Of a DNA stretch of 64,000 nt, positions 159 to 32,340 are shown piece by piece (positions within the stretch are counted from its first letter, which is position 1; the number at the start of each line of letters is the position of its first letter). A model generated the notes under the pieces. That model was not told the DNA's origin. It saw only the letters and a list, made by a program, of their open reading frames with translations, and searched no databases. The translations under genes and the position numbers were made by a program. Source of the stretch: Deltaproteobacteria bacterium (GTDB taxonomy: Bacteria > Desulfobacterota > Desulfobacteria > Desulfobacterales > Desulfosarcinaceae); the NCBI GenBank assembly GCA_021824175.1, contig JAKALP010000018.1:1-64000 (forward strand), read 5' to 3'.

Positions 159-608
159 GTGGCTCCACTGAACCGGAAACCCTGGCTCCCTTTCTCACCG
201 GACAAAGTGGCACACTTTCTCGGTGGAACTAACAGCCGGACGGGCGATTGGGAAGCCTGGCTCGATTTCTTTGCTGAAGCCATAATAATTACTGCCACAC
301 AGGCCGTGGACACTGCCAGGCAGCTGGTCGATTTATCCAAACAGGATCAGGATAAAATCAGCACTCTGGGCAGGGCCGCGGCCTCCACCCTACGCGTCCA
401 TCGAGTCTTAATGGAGCATCCGATCGCAACTTCTGGTTTGCTGTCACGGAAAACAGGCCTTAGTGCGGCCACAGTCAACAAAGCCTTGGGGCATTTAGAG
501 CAGCTCGAAATTATAAGAGAACTCACTGCTCAGAAGCGAAACCGCCTCTTCAGTTATACCCGATATGTGGAGATCATGAATCAGGGCACTGAATTGCCTG
601 GCAGGTGA
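159..608 (+). pseudogene. Fic family protein, C-terminal remnant
   Basis: The 149-residue frame matches only the tail of a Fic (AMP-transferase) protein. From about residue 28 the GDWEAWLDFF segment corresponds to the stretch that follows the Fic catalytic core. It is followed by a helical linker and a C-terminal winged helix (about residues 75-140, with SRKTGLSAATVNKALGHLE resembling a recognition helix). The catalytic HPFxxGNGR motif is absent and there is no room for it between the window edge and this frame. The first 27 residues do not resemble the family. I infer a decayed gene left after a deletion or recombination. A stand-alone regulator made of the winged helix alone is possible but less likely. 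Confidence 0.6.
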
Positions 609-991: not shown

Positions 992-2335
992 TTAAACCAG
1001 CTTGAGCAACTGGTTGGCCGCCACCAGCATGGGGTCCCAGGTGGGGCCAAAGGGCGGGGCGTAGGCCAGGTCGGTCTGGCTGAATTGCTCCACGGTCAGG
1101 CCGGCGTGCAGGGCCACGGCCGGGGCGTTGATGCGATGGGCCACGCCTTCGCGGCCCACCATCTGGGCCCCCAGCAGACGGCCGCTGTTTTTGTCGGCCA
1201 CCATTTGCACTTGGATCGGCGAGGCACCGGGATGGGAGTGGGCCCGGGATGAGGCGCTGATCACGGTGGTGGCCGGCTGGAAGCCGGCCTGTGCTGCCTC
1301 GGCCACGCTCAGGCCGGTGCGGGCCACTTGCAGGTCGAACACCTTGAAGACCGCCGTGCCGGCCACGCCCTGGAGGGACACTGGTTTGCCGGTCAGATCA
1401 TCGGCCACGGCCCATCCGGCCCGGTTGGCGCGCAGGGCCAGGGGAATCCAGACCTTCTGGCCGGTGACCACGTGATAGGCGTCGGCGCAGTCGCCGGCCG
1501 CATAGATGGCTGGATTGGAGGTGCGCAATCGCCGATCCACGGCAATGGCCTTGGCGGGCCCCAATTCCAAACCGGCCGCGGCGGCCAATTGGCTGTTGGG
1601 CTGGATGCCCACGGCCACGATCACCAGATCGGCCGCCAGGGTCTCGTTGCCGGCGGCCACCACGCTCAAGCCCTGGCCGGATTTTTCAATGCGCGCCACG
1701 TCAAACCCCGTGCGCACCTGCACCTGATGGGCCTGTAACTCCTGGCCCACGGTTTCGGCCAGCTCCGGCGCCATCCAGGGCAGCAATTGGGCCCTGGGTT
1801 TGACCATGGTCACTTCCACTTCCCGCATGCGTAGAGCCTCGGCCATCTCCATGGCGATATAGCCCATGCCCATGATGACCGCTTTGCGGATTGGACGCTC
1901 CTGGAGCATGGTTTTGATGTGCCGGGCATGGTCCAGGGTCTTGACCACCGCCACGCCGGGCAGGTCAAAGCCGGGGCGCCGGGGCATGATGGGATCGGCG
2001 CCGGTGGCGATCAGCAGCCGGTCATAGGGCAGTGTAAAGGGCCGGCCCGCCTCATTCCGGCCGGAAACCGTTGCGGTGCCGGGATCGATGCTCTCGGCCC
2101 GATGGCCGGTGCGCACATCGATGCCCGATTTTTTGCGAAATGCTTCCGCCGTGCGTACAACCAAGTCGTCGACCGCCCGCCGGGGGTCGGAGATATTGTA
2201 CGGAATGCCTCAGGCGCTATAGGAGACGGTCTGACTCTGCTCCAGCACGATCACCTCCAGCGAGGCGTCCTGGCGCTTGGCCCGACTGGCCGCGCTCATG
2301 CCGGCGGCGTCCCCGCCGATGACGATGAATTTCAT
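992..2335 (-). CDS. Selenocysteine-containing CoA-disulfide reductase-like flavoenzyme
   Basis: This is a pyridine nucleotide-disulfide oxidoreductase of the CoA-disulfide reductase/NADH oxidase/polysulfide reductase group, 447 residues when read through one TGA codon. The N terminus MKFIVIGGDAAGMSAASRAK is the FAD-binding GxGxxG fold. The single redox-cysteine motif of the family, S-[YF]-[AS]-x-C-G-[IL]-P-Y, reads SYSA-TGA-GIPY here, so the TGA (2210-2212) sits at residue 42 exactly where the catalytic Cys belongs. Frame and homology continue unbroken on both sides: a second nucleotide-binding segment IMGMGYIAMEMAEALR, GIQPNSQLA, YAAGDCAD, and the C-terminal dimerisation tail ending DLAYAPPFGPTWDPMLVAAN. 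The start ATG at 2335 has a GGAGGT Shine-Dalgarno 6 bases upstream. A SECIS-like hairpin follows the TGA. A conventional caller would start this gene at 2164 and lose the FAD motif. Selenocysteine is inferred; a nonsense mutation or sequencing error is the alternative. Confidence 0.85.
2170..2189 (-). promoter_or_regulatory. Putative bacterial SECIS element after the in-frame TGA
   Basis: On the minus strand, 20 bases beginning 20 nt after the TGA fold into a 5-bp lower stem CGACC/GGTCG, a one-base bulge, a 3-bp CCC/GGG upper stem and a GGC loop. The loop begins 28 nt after the TGA and starts with G. Bacterial SECIS elements are known to be stem-loops inside the coding region with a small G-containing apical loop about 16-37 nt after the UGA, bound by SelB. 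The fit is by eye; no folding was run. Confidence 0.6.
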
Positions 2336-2378
2336 AGCTACCTCCCAATTCTGAGCGAAACATTATTGATGGGTTCGT

Positions 2379-2440: not shown

Positions 2441-5400
2441 ATGGTAAGAGAATTCCGCTCTGATCATTATATGTTGGATAGCGTAAGGATGCCCGTGTCG
2501 TCAATCATTGAACAGATCAAAATCCTTGAAGCCAAACTCGCAAACGCGCTGCTCAGCGACCGCATGGCGGCCTGGCACGAAATCAACGCGTTGCGCAAGG
2601 CCGCGAAAAACAAAACCACGCCGGTAGAAAAACTGCTGGCGCGCGGCCAACGCATCGAAGCACGCTTGGAACAATCGGCGTCCCGGCGCGCGGCCCGGCA
2701 GCTGCAGCAACTCAATCTCGGCATCGATCCGGAGCTGCCCATCCAGGCCAGGCAGGAAGAAATAATCGCCGCCATCCGCGGCCACCGGGTGCTGATCGTG
2801 GCCGGCGAAACCGGTTCGGGCAAAACCACCCAACTGCCCAAAATGTGCCTGGCCGCCGGCCGGGGGGTGGACGGCCTGGTGGGCGTGACCCAGCCCCGGC
2901 GCATCGCGGCGCTCACCGTGGGCCGGCGCATTGCCGAAGAGTTGGGAGAAGAGGTGGGCCGCACGGTGGGCGTCAAGATCCGCTTCCAGGATCAGACCAG
3001 CGACGAGACCCGCATCAAGCTGATGACCGACGGCATCCTGCTGGCCGAGGCCCAGACCGATCGCTTCCTCAACGCCTATGACACCCTGATCGTGGACGAA
3101 GCCCACGAGCGCAGCCTCAACATCGACTTTATCCTGGGCCTGCTCAAGCAACTGCTGGTCCGGCGCCGGGATCTGAAAGTAATTATTACTTCGGCCACCA
3201 TCGATACCGAGAAGTTCTCCCAGGCCTTTGACCAGGCCCCGGTCATCGAAGTCTCGGGCCGCATGTACCCGGTGCAGGTGCGCTACGAGGAGCCATCAAC
3301 TGAAAACGGCGAAGAGACCACGCATATCGAACAGGCCGTGCAAGCCCTGGATCGCTTGCAGACCAGCCATCCCAGAGGCGACATTCTGATCTTCATGCCC
3401 ACTGAGCAGGATATCCGCGACACCTGCGAGATCATCCGGGGCCGCCGTTATCCGGGCGCCGAACTCTTCCCGTTGTTTGCCCGGCTGTCGGCCGCCGAGC
3501 AGCAGCGCGTCTTCCATTCCGGCGGCGGCCGCAAGATCGTGGTGGCCACCAATGTGGCCGAAACCTCCATTACCATTCCCGGCATCCGCTATGTCATCGA
3601 CACCGGCCTGGCGCGCGTGCTGCAATATGCGCCGCGCACCCGCACCAACACGCTGCCGGTGGTGCCCATATCGCGCAGCAGCGCCGATCAGCGCATGGGC
3701 CGCTGCGGCCGCACGGCCGATGGTGTTTGCTTCCGTCTTTACAGTCAGGAGGATTACGAGCAGAGGCCCAAATATACGCCGCCGGAGATTTTGCGCGCCA
3801 ATCTGGCCGAAGTCATTCTGCGCATGATTGCTTTGGGTTTGGGCGATGTGGAAGCATTTCCCTTCGTGGACGCGCCCGCGCCGCGAAGCATTCAAGACGG
3901 CTATGCCCTGCTGCTGGAGCTGGGCGCCATCGTACCGGCCCAAAGCAAAGAGAAGCACAAAGGCAAATTCGCCTTGACCGAAAAGGGCCGGCTGATGGCC
4001 AAGCTGCCCCTGGACCCGCGCCTGGCCTGCATGCTGCTGGAGGCCCAGGCCCGCGACTGCCTCAATGACCTGGCCATCATCGCGGCGGCCCTGAGCATCC
4101 AGGACCCGCGCGAGCGGCCCATGGACAAGCAGGCCGAGGCGGACCAGGCCCACGCCCGGTTTGCCGATCCCTCCTCGGATTTCATCACCCTGCTCAACAT
4201 CTGGCACGCTTATGACGCCATTGCTTCCACCCGCACCAGTTGGCAGCCGGTCAAGCAGTTCTGCCGCGCCCGCTTTCTCTCCTGGCGCCGCATGCGCGAG
4301 TGGCAGGATGTGCACCACCAGATTAAAACCCAACTGGCCGAGCAGGGCATCCGCTCCACTCGACCGGCCATGCCGCCGGCCCAGCCCAGCGACATGGGCC
4401 ATAGCTGGTATGCGGCCGTGCACCAATCGATCCTTAGCGGCTTTGTCTCCAATATCGCCATGAAGAAGGAGAAGCAAATCTTCCAAGCCTCCCACAACCG
4501 CCAGGCGATGATCTTCCCCGGCTCGGGCCTGTTTAAAAATCCGGGGCCGTGGATTGTGGCCGCGGAGATGGTGGAGACGTCGCGTCTCTTTGCGCGCTGC
4601 GCGGCGGTCATCGATCCGGCCTGGATCGAGACCGCGGCCAGGGCCCAATGTAAATACACCTACCTCGACCCGCGCTGGGAGCGAAAGCGCGAAGCCGTGG
4701 TGGCCACCGAACAGGTGAGTCTCTTCGGCCTGATCATCGATCTCCGGCCGCGGCCCTACGGCCCGGTCAACCCGGAAGAGGCCGCCGAGATCTTCATCCG
4801 CCACGCCCTGATTCAGGGCGACGTGCGCCGGCCGCCGGCCTTCCTGCGCCACAACCTGGATCTCATGGCCCAGGTGGAGAAAATGGAAGAACGGCTGCGG
4901 CGCCGAGATCTGCGCGTTGAAGAAGAAATGCTGCTGCGCTTCTACCGCGAGCAGCTCGGCCAAACTTACGATTTGCCCGCCTTGCAGGCCCTGGTGAAGA
5001 AAAAGGGTAGCGATGCCTTCCTGCGGCTGAATCTGGATGATCTGCTCAACCATGCGCCCGGAAGTGAAGAATTGGAACAATATCCCGAGCAGATCGAGGC
5101 CGACGGCCTGCCCCTGGCATGTGATTATCGCTTCACGCCGGGCGAAGCCGAAGACGGCGTGACCGTGCGCGTGCCCATGCGGGCCGCGGGTGCGCTCACG
5201 GGCGACAGTTTCCAGTGGCTGGTGCCGGGCTTGCTCAAGGAGAAGATCGCGGCCCTGATCAAAGCTTTGCCCAAGGAGCTGCGCAAGCAACTGGTGCCGG
5301 TCAACGATACGGTGGCGACCATCGTGACCCAGATGCCTATCCAGCGCGATATCAGCCTGAGCACGGCCTTGAGCCGCTTCGTACGTCAGAAATGGCGCAT

Positions 5401-6466
5401 CGACATTCCGGCTGCGCTCTGGAATGAATCCCATTTGCCCGACCATTTGCGCATGCGCATCGCGCTCACCGACGACCATGGCCAGGTAGTGCGCGCCGGC
5501 CGGGATGCCTGCGTGCTCACCCAAAGCGAATCCACCGCCGCGCCGGAAACCTTTCAGCAGGCCCGCCAGGCTTACGAGCGCGGACCCATCGAGCAGTGGG
5601 ATTTCGAGGATCTGCCCGAAACCATTGTGCTGAGCGGTCCGGCCAAGACGCGCCACACCGCTTATCCGGCCCTGGAAGTGCGAGGGAATATCATCGTGCG
5701 CACGGCCTTCGCCGATCTGGCCGCGGCCCGCCGCGCCCATCCCCAGGCCGTCAAAGCCTTGTTAGTTCAGCGGCTAGGAACGGAGATCAAATTTCTGCGC
5801 CGCAACCTGGCCCTGCCCTACAGCACCGAGGCCCAGTGCCGCTACTTCGGCGGCCGGCCGGCCCTGGAAGAGCAGCTCTTCCAGCGCGTGCTGGACGATC
5901 ATCTGGCCAAAGATCTTCGCACCAGGGAAGCCTTCGAGACCCTGCTTGAAGAACTGCACCGGCAAAACATCGCGGCCTGGGGCCAGGCGCTCAAGCCCCA
6001 CCTGATGACCGTGCTCGACGCCTATCAGACTACGCGTATGGCCATGGCCGACCTGGAAAAGGCCCACCCGGTCAATGGTCCGTTGCATCTGTTTTTGAAT
6101 GAATTAAGGACCGGCCTTCAGCACCTGGTGCCGGAGCACTTCATTGCCCTCTATGATGAAAGCCGGCTGCAACAGCTGCCCCGCTATCTGCGGGCCACCG
6201 CCATCCGCGCCGAGCGCGCGGCCGTGGACCTGGAAAAAGATCGCGCCAAATCGCGGCAGATCGAACCCTATGAAGCGCGCTTGTCTGCTCTGATCCAGGA
6301 GTTGACTATCCACAGCAGCGAAGAAAAACGGCGGGCCGTGGAAGAGTTCTTCTGGATGCTGGAAGAATTTAAAATCTCCCTCTTTGCCCAGCAGATCAAA
6401 ACCCTGCGACCCATTTCAGCCAAACGCCTGGACGCCATGATCAGGGAGATTGGAGATCTGGTTTAA
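2441..6466 (+). CDS. hrpA: ATP-dependent RNA helicase HrpA (DEAH box)
   Basis: This is a full-length HrpA, 1341 residues against a usual length of about 1300. Visible helicase motifs are Walker A GETGSGKTT (about 122-130), QPRRIAA, DEAH (219-222), SATI (about 251), ATNVAETSITIPG and QRMGRCGR. The helicase-associated and OB-fold region follows, then the long C-terminal extension (DUF3418 type) typical of HrpA. It is expected to unwind RNA or resolve stalled translation complexes in the cytoplasm. The start is uncertain: ATG codons at 2441, 2471 and 2489 are all in frame and none has a well-spaced Shine-Dalgarno. The convincing family match begins after the last of these. The gene stands alone, divergent from the selenoenzyme. 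Confidence 0.95.
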   Translation: MVREFRSDHYMLDSVRMPVSSIIEQIKILEAKLANALLSDRMAAWHEINALRKAAKNKTTPVEKLLARGQRIEARLEQSASRRAARQLQQLNLGIDPELPIQARQEEIIAAIRGHRVLIVAGETGSGKTTQLPKMCLAAGRGVDGLVGVTQPRRIAALTVGRRIAEELGEEVGRTVGVKIRFQDQTSDETRIKLMTDGILLAEAQTDRFLNAYDTLIVDEAHERSLNIDFILGLLKQLLVRRRDLKVIITSATIDTEKFSQAFDQAPVIEVSGRMYPVQVRYEEPSTENGEETTHIEQAVQALDRLQTSHPRGDILIFMPTEQDIRDTCEIIRGRRYPGAELFPLFARLSAAEQQRVFHSGGGRKIVVATNVAETSITIPGIRYVIDTGLARVLQYAPRTRTNTLPVVPISRSSADQRMGRCGRTADGVCFRLYSQEDYEQRPKYTPPEILRANLAEVILRMIALGLGDVEAFPFVDAPAPRSIQDGYALLLELGAIVPAQSKEKHKGKFALTEKGRLMAKLPLDPRLACMLLEAQARDCLNDLAIIAAALSIQDPRERPMDKQAEADQAHARFADPSSDFITLLNIWHAYDAIASTRTSWQPVKQFCRARFLSWRRMREWQDVHHQIKTQLAEQGIRSTRPAMPPAQPSDMGHSWYAAVHQSILSGFVSNIAMKKEKQIFQASHNRQAMIFPGSGLFKNPGPWIVAAEMVETSRLFARCAAVIDPAWIETAARAQCKYTYLDPRWERKREAVVATEQVSLFGLIIDLRPRPYGPVNPEEAAEIFIRHALIQGDVRRPPAFLRHNLDLMAQVEKMEERLRRRDLRVEEEMLLRFYREQLGQTYDLPALQALVKKKGSDAFLRLNLDDLLNHAPGSEELEQYPEQIEADGLPLACDYRFTPGEAEDGVTVRVPMRAAGALTGDSFQWLVPGLLKEKIAALIKALPKELRKQLVPVNDTVATIVTQMPIQRDISLSTALSRFVRQKWRIDIPAALWNESHLPDHLRMRIALTDDHGQVVRAGRDACVLTQSESTAAPETFQQARQAYERGPIEQWDFEDLPETIVLSGPAKTRHTAYPALEVRGNIIVRTAFADLAAARRAHPQAVKALLVQRLGTEIKFLRRNLALPYSTEAQCRYFGGRPALEEQLFQRVLDDHLAKDLRTREAFETLLEELHRQNIAAWGQALKPHLMTVLDAYQTTRMAMADLEKAHPVNGPLHLFLNELRTGLQHLVPEHFIALYDESRLQQLPRYLRATAIRAERAAVDLEKDRAKSRQIEPYEARLSALIQELTIHSSEEKRRAVEEFFWMLEEFKISLFAQQIKTLRPISAKRLDAMIREIGDLV

Positions 6467-32037: not shown

Positions 32038-32121
32038 TCCCTTTTTTATCCGCTTGATCTATCTAAATGCGACCGATCTTTTCCGCCAACGGTGGTCCAC
32101 GCCATTGAACTTGGCCGCAAA

Positions 32122-32309
32122 CGCTCAGGCAGGTCTTCTGACTTCCCCACCCCACTCGCGGCCTTCCCATCCCAGCTGGACAGTGGCACACAGGGCGCTT
32201 GAGGTTCCCGATACCAATCGCATCGGGCGGGGTCACAGCGGCGGGCCCGTCCCCGAATCACACGGGGTTCCCTTTTCAGCTCCCAAAGCGGGAGCACCTG
32301 AACACCCAT
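32122..32309 (-). promoter_or_regulatory. Cobalamin riboswitch
   Basis: Read on the minus strand, the leader shows the conserved cobalamin aptamer blocks in order: GTTCAGGTGC near the 5' end, GGGAACCCCGTGTGA, ACGGGCCCGC-CGCTGTGACC, and AAGTCAGAAGACCTGCC near the 3' end. The last block is the B12-box region. It precedes btuB by about 185 bases with a terminator in between, so high B12 should reduce btuB-tonB expression. Confidence 0.93.
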
Positions 32310-32311
32310 GG

Positions 32312-32340
32312 CCCTAACGTATCGCGGCGGGCAATGTCAA
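32312..32340 (-). promoter_or_regulatory. Possible promoter of the riboswitch-btuB transcript
   Basis: On the minus strand a consensus TTGACA (32340-32335) is followed after 17 bases by TTAGGG (32317-32312), a weak -10. The predicted start falls right at the 5' edge of the riboswitch. The -35 box overlaps the stop codon of the acyl-CoA dehydrogenase gene. Confidence 0.4.

Follow-up and report, generated by a model that had tools for sequence, protein, structure and literature searches.

In the excerpts available of PMC6026696 and PMC7969121, CoA-disulfide reductase (CoADR) and Npsr are described as enzymes whose single Cys works with bound CoA. Selenocysteine (Sec) counterparts have entered selenoprotein catalogues under several names. 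The accessible part of PMC1794560, from 2006, counts 'NADH oxidase' among the bacterial selenoprotein families with one member, from Geobacter metallireducens, and an ocean survey includes one 'NADH oxidase' selenoprotein (PMC2398784, in the portion at hand). The selenoprotein tables of PMC9312934 and PMC13188914 contain a 'FAD-dependent oxidoreductase (CoA-disulfide reductase)', for which the excerpted entry in PMC13188914 gives the family model TIGR03385, the motif UGxP and the example WP_011365774.1; the main text of PMC5029168 contains neither of the terms 'NADH oxidase' and 'CoA-disulfide'. A first-pass annotation of the DNA studied here had left open whether a Sec form of this family was already catalogued, and these entries (PMC1794560, PMC9312934, PMC13188914, as excerpted) answer that it has been since 2006. 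A different way of reading UGA, the selC* tRNA-Cys/selB*/cysS* arrangement, has been described for Desulfobacterales (PMC7609411, in the part available). Our literature search, mostly at the level of listings, returned no publication joining a TGA-containing reductase with the selC*/selB*/cysS* system, and a search combining Desulfatitalea with selenoprotein returned nothing.

The window, a stretch of 64,000 nucleotides from a Desulfatitalea-like lineage, carries a gene that by family model and motif appears to belong to this catalogued selenoprotein family: TIGR03385 is its best NCBIfam match, the predicted Sec falls on the single catalytic Cys, and UGIP fits UGxP, a likeness drawn from the model and the motif. 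What is added here is the lineage, the breadth of the TGA forms in the phylum, the evidence for a hairpin and the fact that the genome also has a UGA tRNA system charged with Cys. The features on which the argument rests are as follows.

992 to 2335, minus strand: coding sequence, with UGA as codon 42, of the reductase, a CoADR/persulfide-reductase-like FAD and NAD(P)H enzyme, assigned from the translation, Pfam, NCBIfam and PDB matches and an AlphaFold2 model
2341 to 2346, minus strand: GGGAGG, probable ribosome-binding site, 5 nt before the ATG, read in the sequence
2300 to 2317, minus strand: GGDAAG, codons 7–12, upstream of the TGA, which we take to be the FAD-binding motif; G7 and D9–G12 are invariant in 28 aligned rows
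2210 to 2212, minus strand: in-frame TGA at codon 42, the place of the catalytic Cys, where Sec is predicted
2170 to 2189, minus strand: predicted SECIS hairpin of 8 pairs with apical loop GGC and one bulged C, beginning 20 nt after the TGA, from a computed fold and pair conservation
1838 to 1870, minus strand: GMGYIAMEMAE, codons 156–166, conserved columns, presumably the NAD(P)H-binding motif
1061 to 1063, minus strand: codon of Tyr425, Tyr in 101/101 homologue rows and 24/24 further TGA homologues, assumed to be the active-site Tyr
2441 to 6466, plus strand: divergent gene, presumably for an HrpA-like helicase, a conserved neighbour of TGA forms by flank comparison

The gene runs from an ATG at 2335 to a TAA stop at 992 and comprises 447 codons, the single odd one being TGA 42 in the context SYSAUGIPY. 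The first-pass annotation had read the gene as the Sec version of a CoADR-like enzyme, with one in-frame TGA at the catalytic Cys of the motif SYSACGIPY and a good ribosome site at the true start; the translation and the homologue column confirm the first of these details, and the GGGAGG agrees with the second. From sequence comparison, we consider that the gene encodes a selenoprotein of the CoADR/persulfide-reductase-like pyridine nucleotide-disulfide oxidoreductases, with Sec at UGA 42, at a probability of about 0.88. The proposal is carried by the Sec machinery of the genome, the conservation of the TGA, a strict alternation of Cys and TGA among homologues and a hairpin that is stronger in the TGA forms. 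On this reading, SelB and Sec-tRNA-Sec would use the hairpin to insert Sec at UGA 42, and the selenol, lying beside FAD, would take electrons from NAD(P)H via FAD and pass them to a small disulfide, persulfide or polysulfide, CoA possibly being bound as well. The mixed disulfide or sulfenic acid of the Cys enzymes would be replaced by a selenenyl-sulfide or selenenic-acid state.

The family similarity that had been claimed for both sides of the TGA is borne out by the Pfam matches (Pyr_redox_2 over residues 2–303, Pyr_redox over 151–225 and Pyr_redox_dim over 329–430) and by TIGR03385, the CoA-disulfide reductase model, over residues 2–439. Because the score of 393.4 bits lies far below the cut-off of 578.8 bits of this equivalog, the '-like' in the earlier designation 'CoA-disulfide reductase-like' is right, whereas CoADR as such is not established. 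The nearest solved sequence is 6ruz (E 1.1e-100). An AlphaFold2 model built with 28 aligned rows (mean pLDDT 91.6) is predicted to have the CoADR fold, including the FAD, NAD(P)H and dimer domains, and in Foldseek searches with this predicted model ranks 1–20 are taken by CoADR and persulfide reductase structures (query TM 0.93–0.95, 32–42% identity). The enzyme resembles these reductases in fold, domain order, catalytic position, Tyr425 and the C-terminal DLAYAPPF segment; it differs from them in having a Sec codon in place of Cys, in residues 367–368 and in its score below the CoADR cut-off. Unlike Npsr (PMC7969121, as excerpted), the 447-residue reductase has no C-terminal rhodanese domain. 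Three Cys paralogues in the same genome are more distant, at 31–37% identity.

One alternative concerns the substrate, which could be H2O2 or O2 in place of a disulfide or persulfide; the protein would then be a Sec NADH peroxidase or oxidase, a reading that we regard as unlikely. The group of single-Cys enzymes includes such proteins, their folds match the model with a query TM of 0.91–0.94, the TIGR03385 score falls short of the cut-off, and 'NADH oxidase' was the name under which the Geobacter form was catalogued in 2006 (PMC1794560, in the part available). The active site adds a further point in its favour. The S. aureus CoADR has two active-site Tyr residues, Y361 and Y419, named in PDB entry titles, which we assume to map to the 367–368 region and to Tyr425, respectively. 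At residues 367–368 the enzyme has S-H and its close subfamily mostly A-H, as opposed to Y-Y in three aligned reductase sequences, so that the substrate may differ from CoA disulfide; in more distant TGA forms these two residues are variable. Against this alternative, oxidases and peroxidases rank after the reductases in the structural search, at 24–28% identity, and Tyr425 together with the segment DLAYAPPF.P.WDP matches the reductases.

The evidence that codon 42 calls for Sec or a Cys-like residue comes from the homologues. An order-level search with the reductase protein covered 389 genomes, of which 184 matched at E 1e-100 or better. Within the same genus, 11 genomes were sampled, counting the own one: nine have a match, each with one TGA, and the other two (G126 and G331) gave no reductase match at E 1e-100; thus each sampled member of the genus having the gene carries the predicted Sec codon. 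Beyond the genus, at least nine more genomes of the order contain a match with one TGA, giving at least 18 in all among the matches listed. For alignment, 130 loci were assembled (the own locus, 29 search loci, 80 of 150 relatives and 20 further stretches) and reduced to 101 distinct rows by removal of identical proteins. The sought Cys homologues are plentiful: the codon-42 column contains solely Cys (80 rows) or TGA (21 rows), and in all 21 TGA rows codon 42 is the sole stop. One Cys protein, represented by two loci (L102 and L155), was retained with its stop at position 187 written as X.

The TGA forms recur across the phylum. Among 395 genomes searched at this level, 122 matched at 1e-90, and 45 (own included) have a match holding one TGA, among the matches listed. 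The position of the TGA was checked in 24 of the other 44 genomes, four of them near and 20 at about 38–44% identity, and it fell on codon 42 in 24/24. TGA forms are widespread in the phylum, and those at about 40% identity may include WP_011365774.1. The residues after Sec are more variable than those after Cys: CGMP is found throughout the 80 close Cys rows, codons 42–46 read UNLPY and not UGIPY or UGMPY in two TGA forms (L149 and L153), and distant TGA forms have USEPY, UELAY, UPMPY and others.

A putative SECIS hairpin, computed to lie just downstream of the UGA, is the candidate target of SelB. In the genus it has the form CGACC-CCC-(GGC)-GGG-c-GGUCG. When codons 46–59 were folded and each row was compared with synonymous shuffles, the mean z was −1.35 for the TGA rows (n=21) and −0.14 for the Cys rows (n=80; Mann–Whitney p 4.6e-8), and single rows reached p 0.05 in 4/21 and 4/80 cases, respectively. 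All 72 pair cells of the nine same-genus rows are standard pairs, with one compensatory change within the genus (C-G in six rows, U-A in three). Of five pair measures, the observed percentage paired and the covariation score were reached by 12 of 500 pair-count shuffles, the number of pairs changed on both sides by 385/500 and that of further pair types by 500/500, figures that the tool does not offer as probabilities. Within the genus, codon conservation along the gene is strongest in an eight-codon stretch that starts at codon 51, inside the hairpin. Other TGA clades have loops GGUC, GGC, GGU or GGA on stems that differ. An Rfam scan of the window found no SECIS-type family, its sole match at gathering scores being a cobalamin riboswitch.

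The genome has the canonical machinery for inserting Sec. A search for selA, selB, selC (tRNA-Sec) and selD, whose absence would have refuted Sec according to the first-pass annotation, found all four: selA at 620 bits, selB at 379 bits, a UCA tRNA-Sec at 73 bits and selD twice, at 375 and 366 bits (C22:180507 and C51:42445), each copy with one in-frame TGA. After its TGA the C51 selD has CCCGGUCGGG, nearer than in the reductase; in the computed fold of that stretch CCCGGUCGGG is not used as a simple hairpin, which gives no support either way. Across the 18 TGA genomes among the matches listed, 10 have a tRNA-Sec of at least 72 bits and one (G200) a 59-bit match, while six, with completeness of 86% or less, gave no tRNA-Sec at 1e-8. 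A further comparison is with G152, a genome of the same genus listed as 100% complete: it has canonical SelB (31% identical to SelB*), one tRNA-Sec match, the same TGA and an identical hairpin core, and SelB* was not found there at the thresholds used, canonical SelB being the only one seen. As the only system found in G152 is the canonical one, Sec is the default reading of this codon.

The own genome also contains a second UGA-reading system on another contig, and it leaves some doubt over the amino acid in a Sec assignment that is otherwise supported. Its genes form a cluster on contig C22.

C22:173696-182147 of the own genome (G000; L030:7697-16147): tRNA(UCA, U73), selB*, cysS*, double-cubane-cluster protein, activase, second double-cubane protein, selD and yedF, in this order

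The tRNA, a second, tRNA-Sec-like UCA tRNA at 52 bits, lies 24 nt before the second selB and has U73 and a terminal pair A1.C72, against A1:U72 in six other copies read. SelB* is 32% identical to the own canonical SelB, and the cysS* product is a cysteinyl-tRNA synthetase of 418 residues. The order tRNA(UCA, U73)-selB*-cysS* is shared with the Desulfobacterales system (PMC7609411, in the part available). The gene beyond the cluster has 56–64% identity to counterparts in six same-genus genomes and 42–48% in nine others, and because it is closer within the genus, C22 looks native.

The UGA of the reductase could therefore in principle be read as Cys in this genome. It might be decoded wholly or partly by tRNA-Cys(UCA, U73) with SelB* and CysRS*, yielding either a Cys enzyme or a mixture of Sec and Cys forms that depends on the selenium supply, an alternative that we hold to be improbable. 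In its favour, the genome has selC*, selB* and cysS*, next to a gene that is native to the genus, and Cys is tolerated at position 42 in 80 of the 101 homologues. In E. coli, related tRNAs reportedly insert Cys at UGA together with SelB (Vargas-Rodriguez 2018). Against it, an association of the TGA reductase with SelB* is absent across the 389 genomes: a SelB*-like protein (identity of 34% or more) occurs in 32 of them, namely in 2/18 TGA genomes among the matches listed versus 30/371 others (Fisher p 0.65). Proteins clearly closer to the cysS* product than ordinary CysRS is were seen in just two genomes, the own one and G153, and perhaps in a third, G117, next to its SelB*. G152, in which no SelB* was found, has the same hairpin core.

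G153 has a close cysS* (57%; L302, G153 C100:8000-22000) alongside a TGA reductase and canonical SelB, and although it is 98% complete, no canonical tRNA-Sec was found at 1e-8, only a selC*-like tRNA; this counts against Sec as the sole reading in that genome, unless its tRNA-Sec was lost in the assembly. A related proposal is that the same UGA and hairpin are served both by SelB with Sec-tRNA-Sec and by SelB* with Cys-tRNA-Cys(UCA) charged by CysRS*, Sec being inserted if selenium is plentiful and Cys if it is scarce. We think this rather improbable too; if true, the catalytic site would hold a programmed two-amino-acid codon. The genome is also a test bed for the role of the Desulfobacterales Cys-charging UGA tRNA, since a UGA gene calling for a Cys-like residue coexists with both tRNAs.

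The first double-cubane protein of the cluster is 76–83% identical in four other selB* loci (L302, L304, L305 and L307), where selB* is 48–61% identical, and its greater conservation may point to a functional link. No copy was found in L303, whose contig ends inside selB*, or in L306 and L308. In-frame stops were sought in selB*, cysS*, the first double-cubane gene, the activase and selD of four other selB* loci, and as the only one seen was in selD of L302, no dedicated SelB* target was found. Literature on double-cubane proteins with selenium genes, surveyed by title, showed no description of a C22-type cluster.

The interruption of the frame, for which the ORF list of the window gives only a downstream ORF of 390 codons, would also fit a pseudogene, an error in the sequence or TGA having been reassigned throughout the genome, yet any of these is barely credible, as the same TGA occurs in 21 distinct homologues with no other stop, both sides of it are constrained and TGA is an ordinary stop in the window. 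The constraint follows from comparison of the own gene with the eight other same-genus TGA genes, which gave dN 0.06–0.30 and dS 0.50–1.68 for codons 1–41, and dN 0.19–0.29 and dS 0.70–0.98 for codons 43–445. TGA counts as an ordinary stop because it terminates 14 of the 37 ORFs of at least 200 codons in the window, ORFs that were picked mechanically. Translation solely from the TTG at 2164 was rejected as well, codons 1–41 being both constrained and conserved.

On a tree of the 101 rows the Cys/TGA label needs at least five changes, a number as low as which was reached by none of 500 shuffles (mean 19.3). The starred branches of this tree force two changes, and a single TGA clade is not rejected by the AU test (p 0.149). 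Such switches between Cys and TGA on one tree provide natural pairs for asking what Sec adds to the chemistry. In rows having 700 nt or more of 5' flank, the presumed helicase gene adjoins the reductase in 17/18 TGA rows versus 8/71 Cys rows, so that the TGA form tends to one gene neighbourhood. On the other side of the reductase, an ORF at 159 to 608 (plus strand) resembles, by eye, the C-terminal region of a Fic-type protein; in six related loci its place is taken by a conserved small gene downstream of the reductase, which we take to be YjbQ-like. Farther along the window, the cobalamin riboswitch lies at 32111 to 32316 on the minus strand (104.3 bits).
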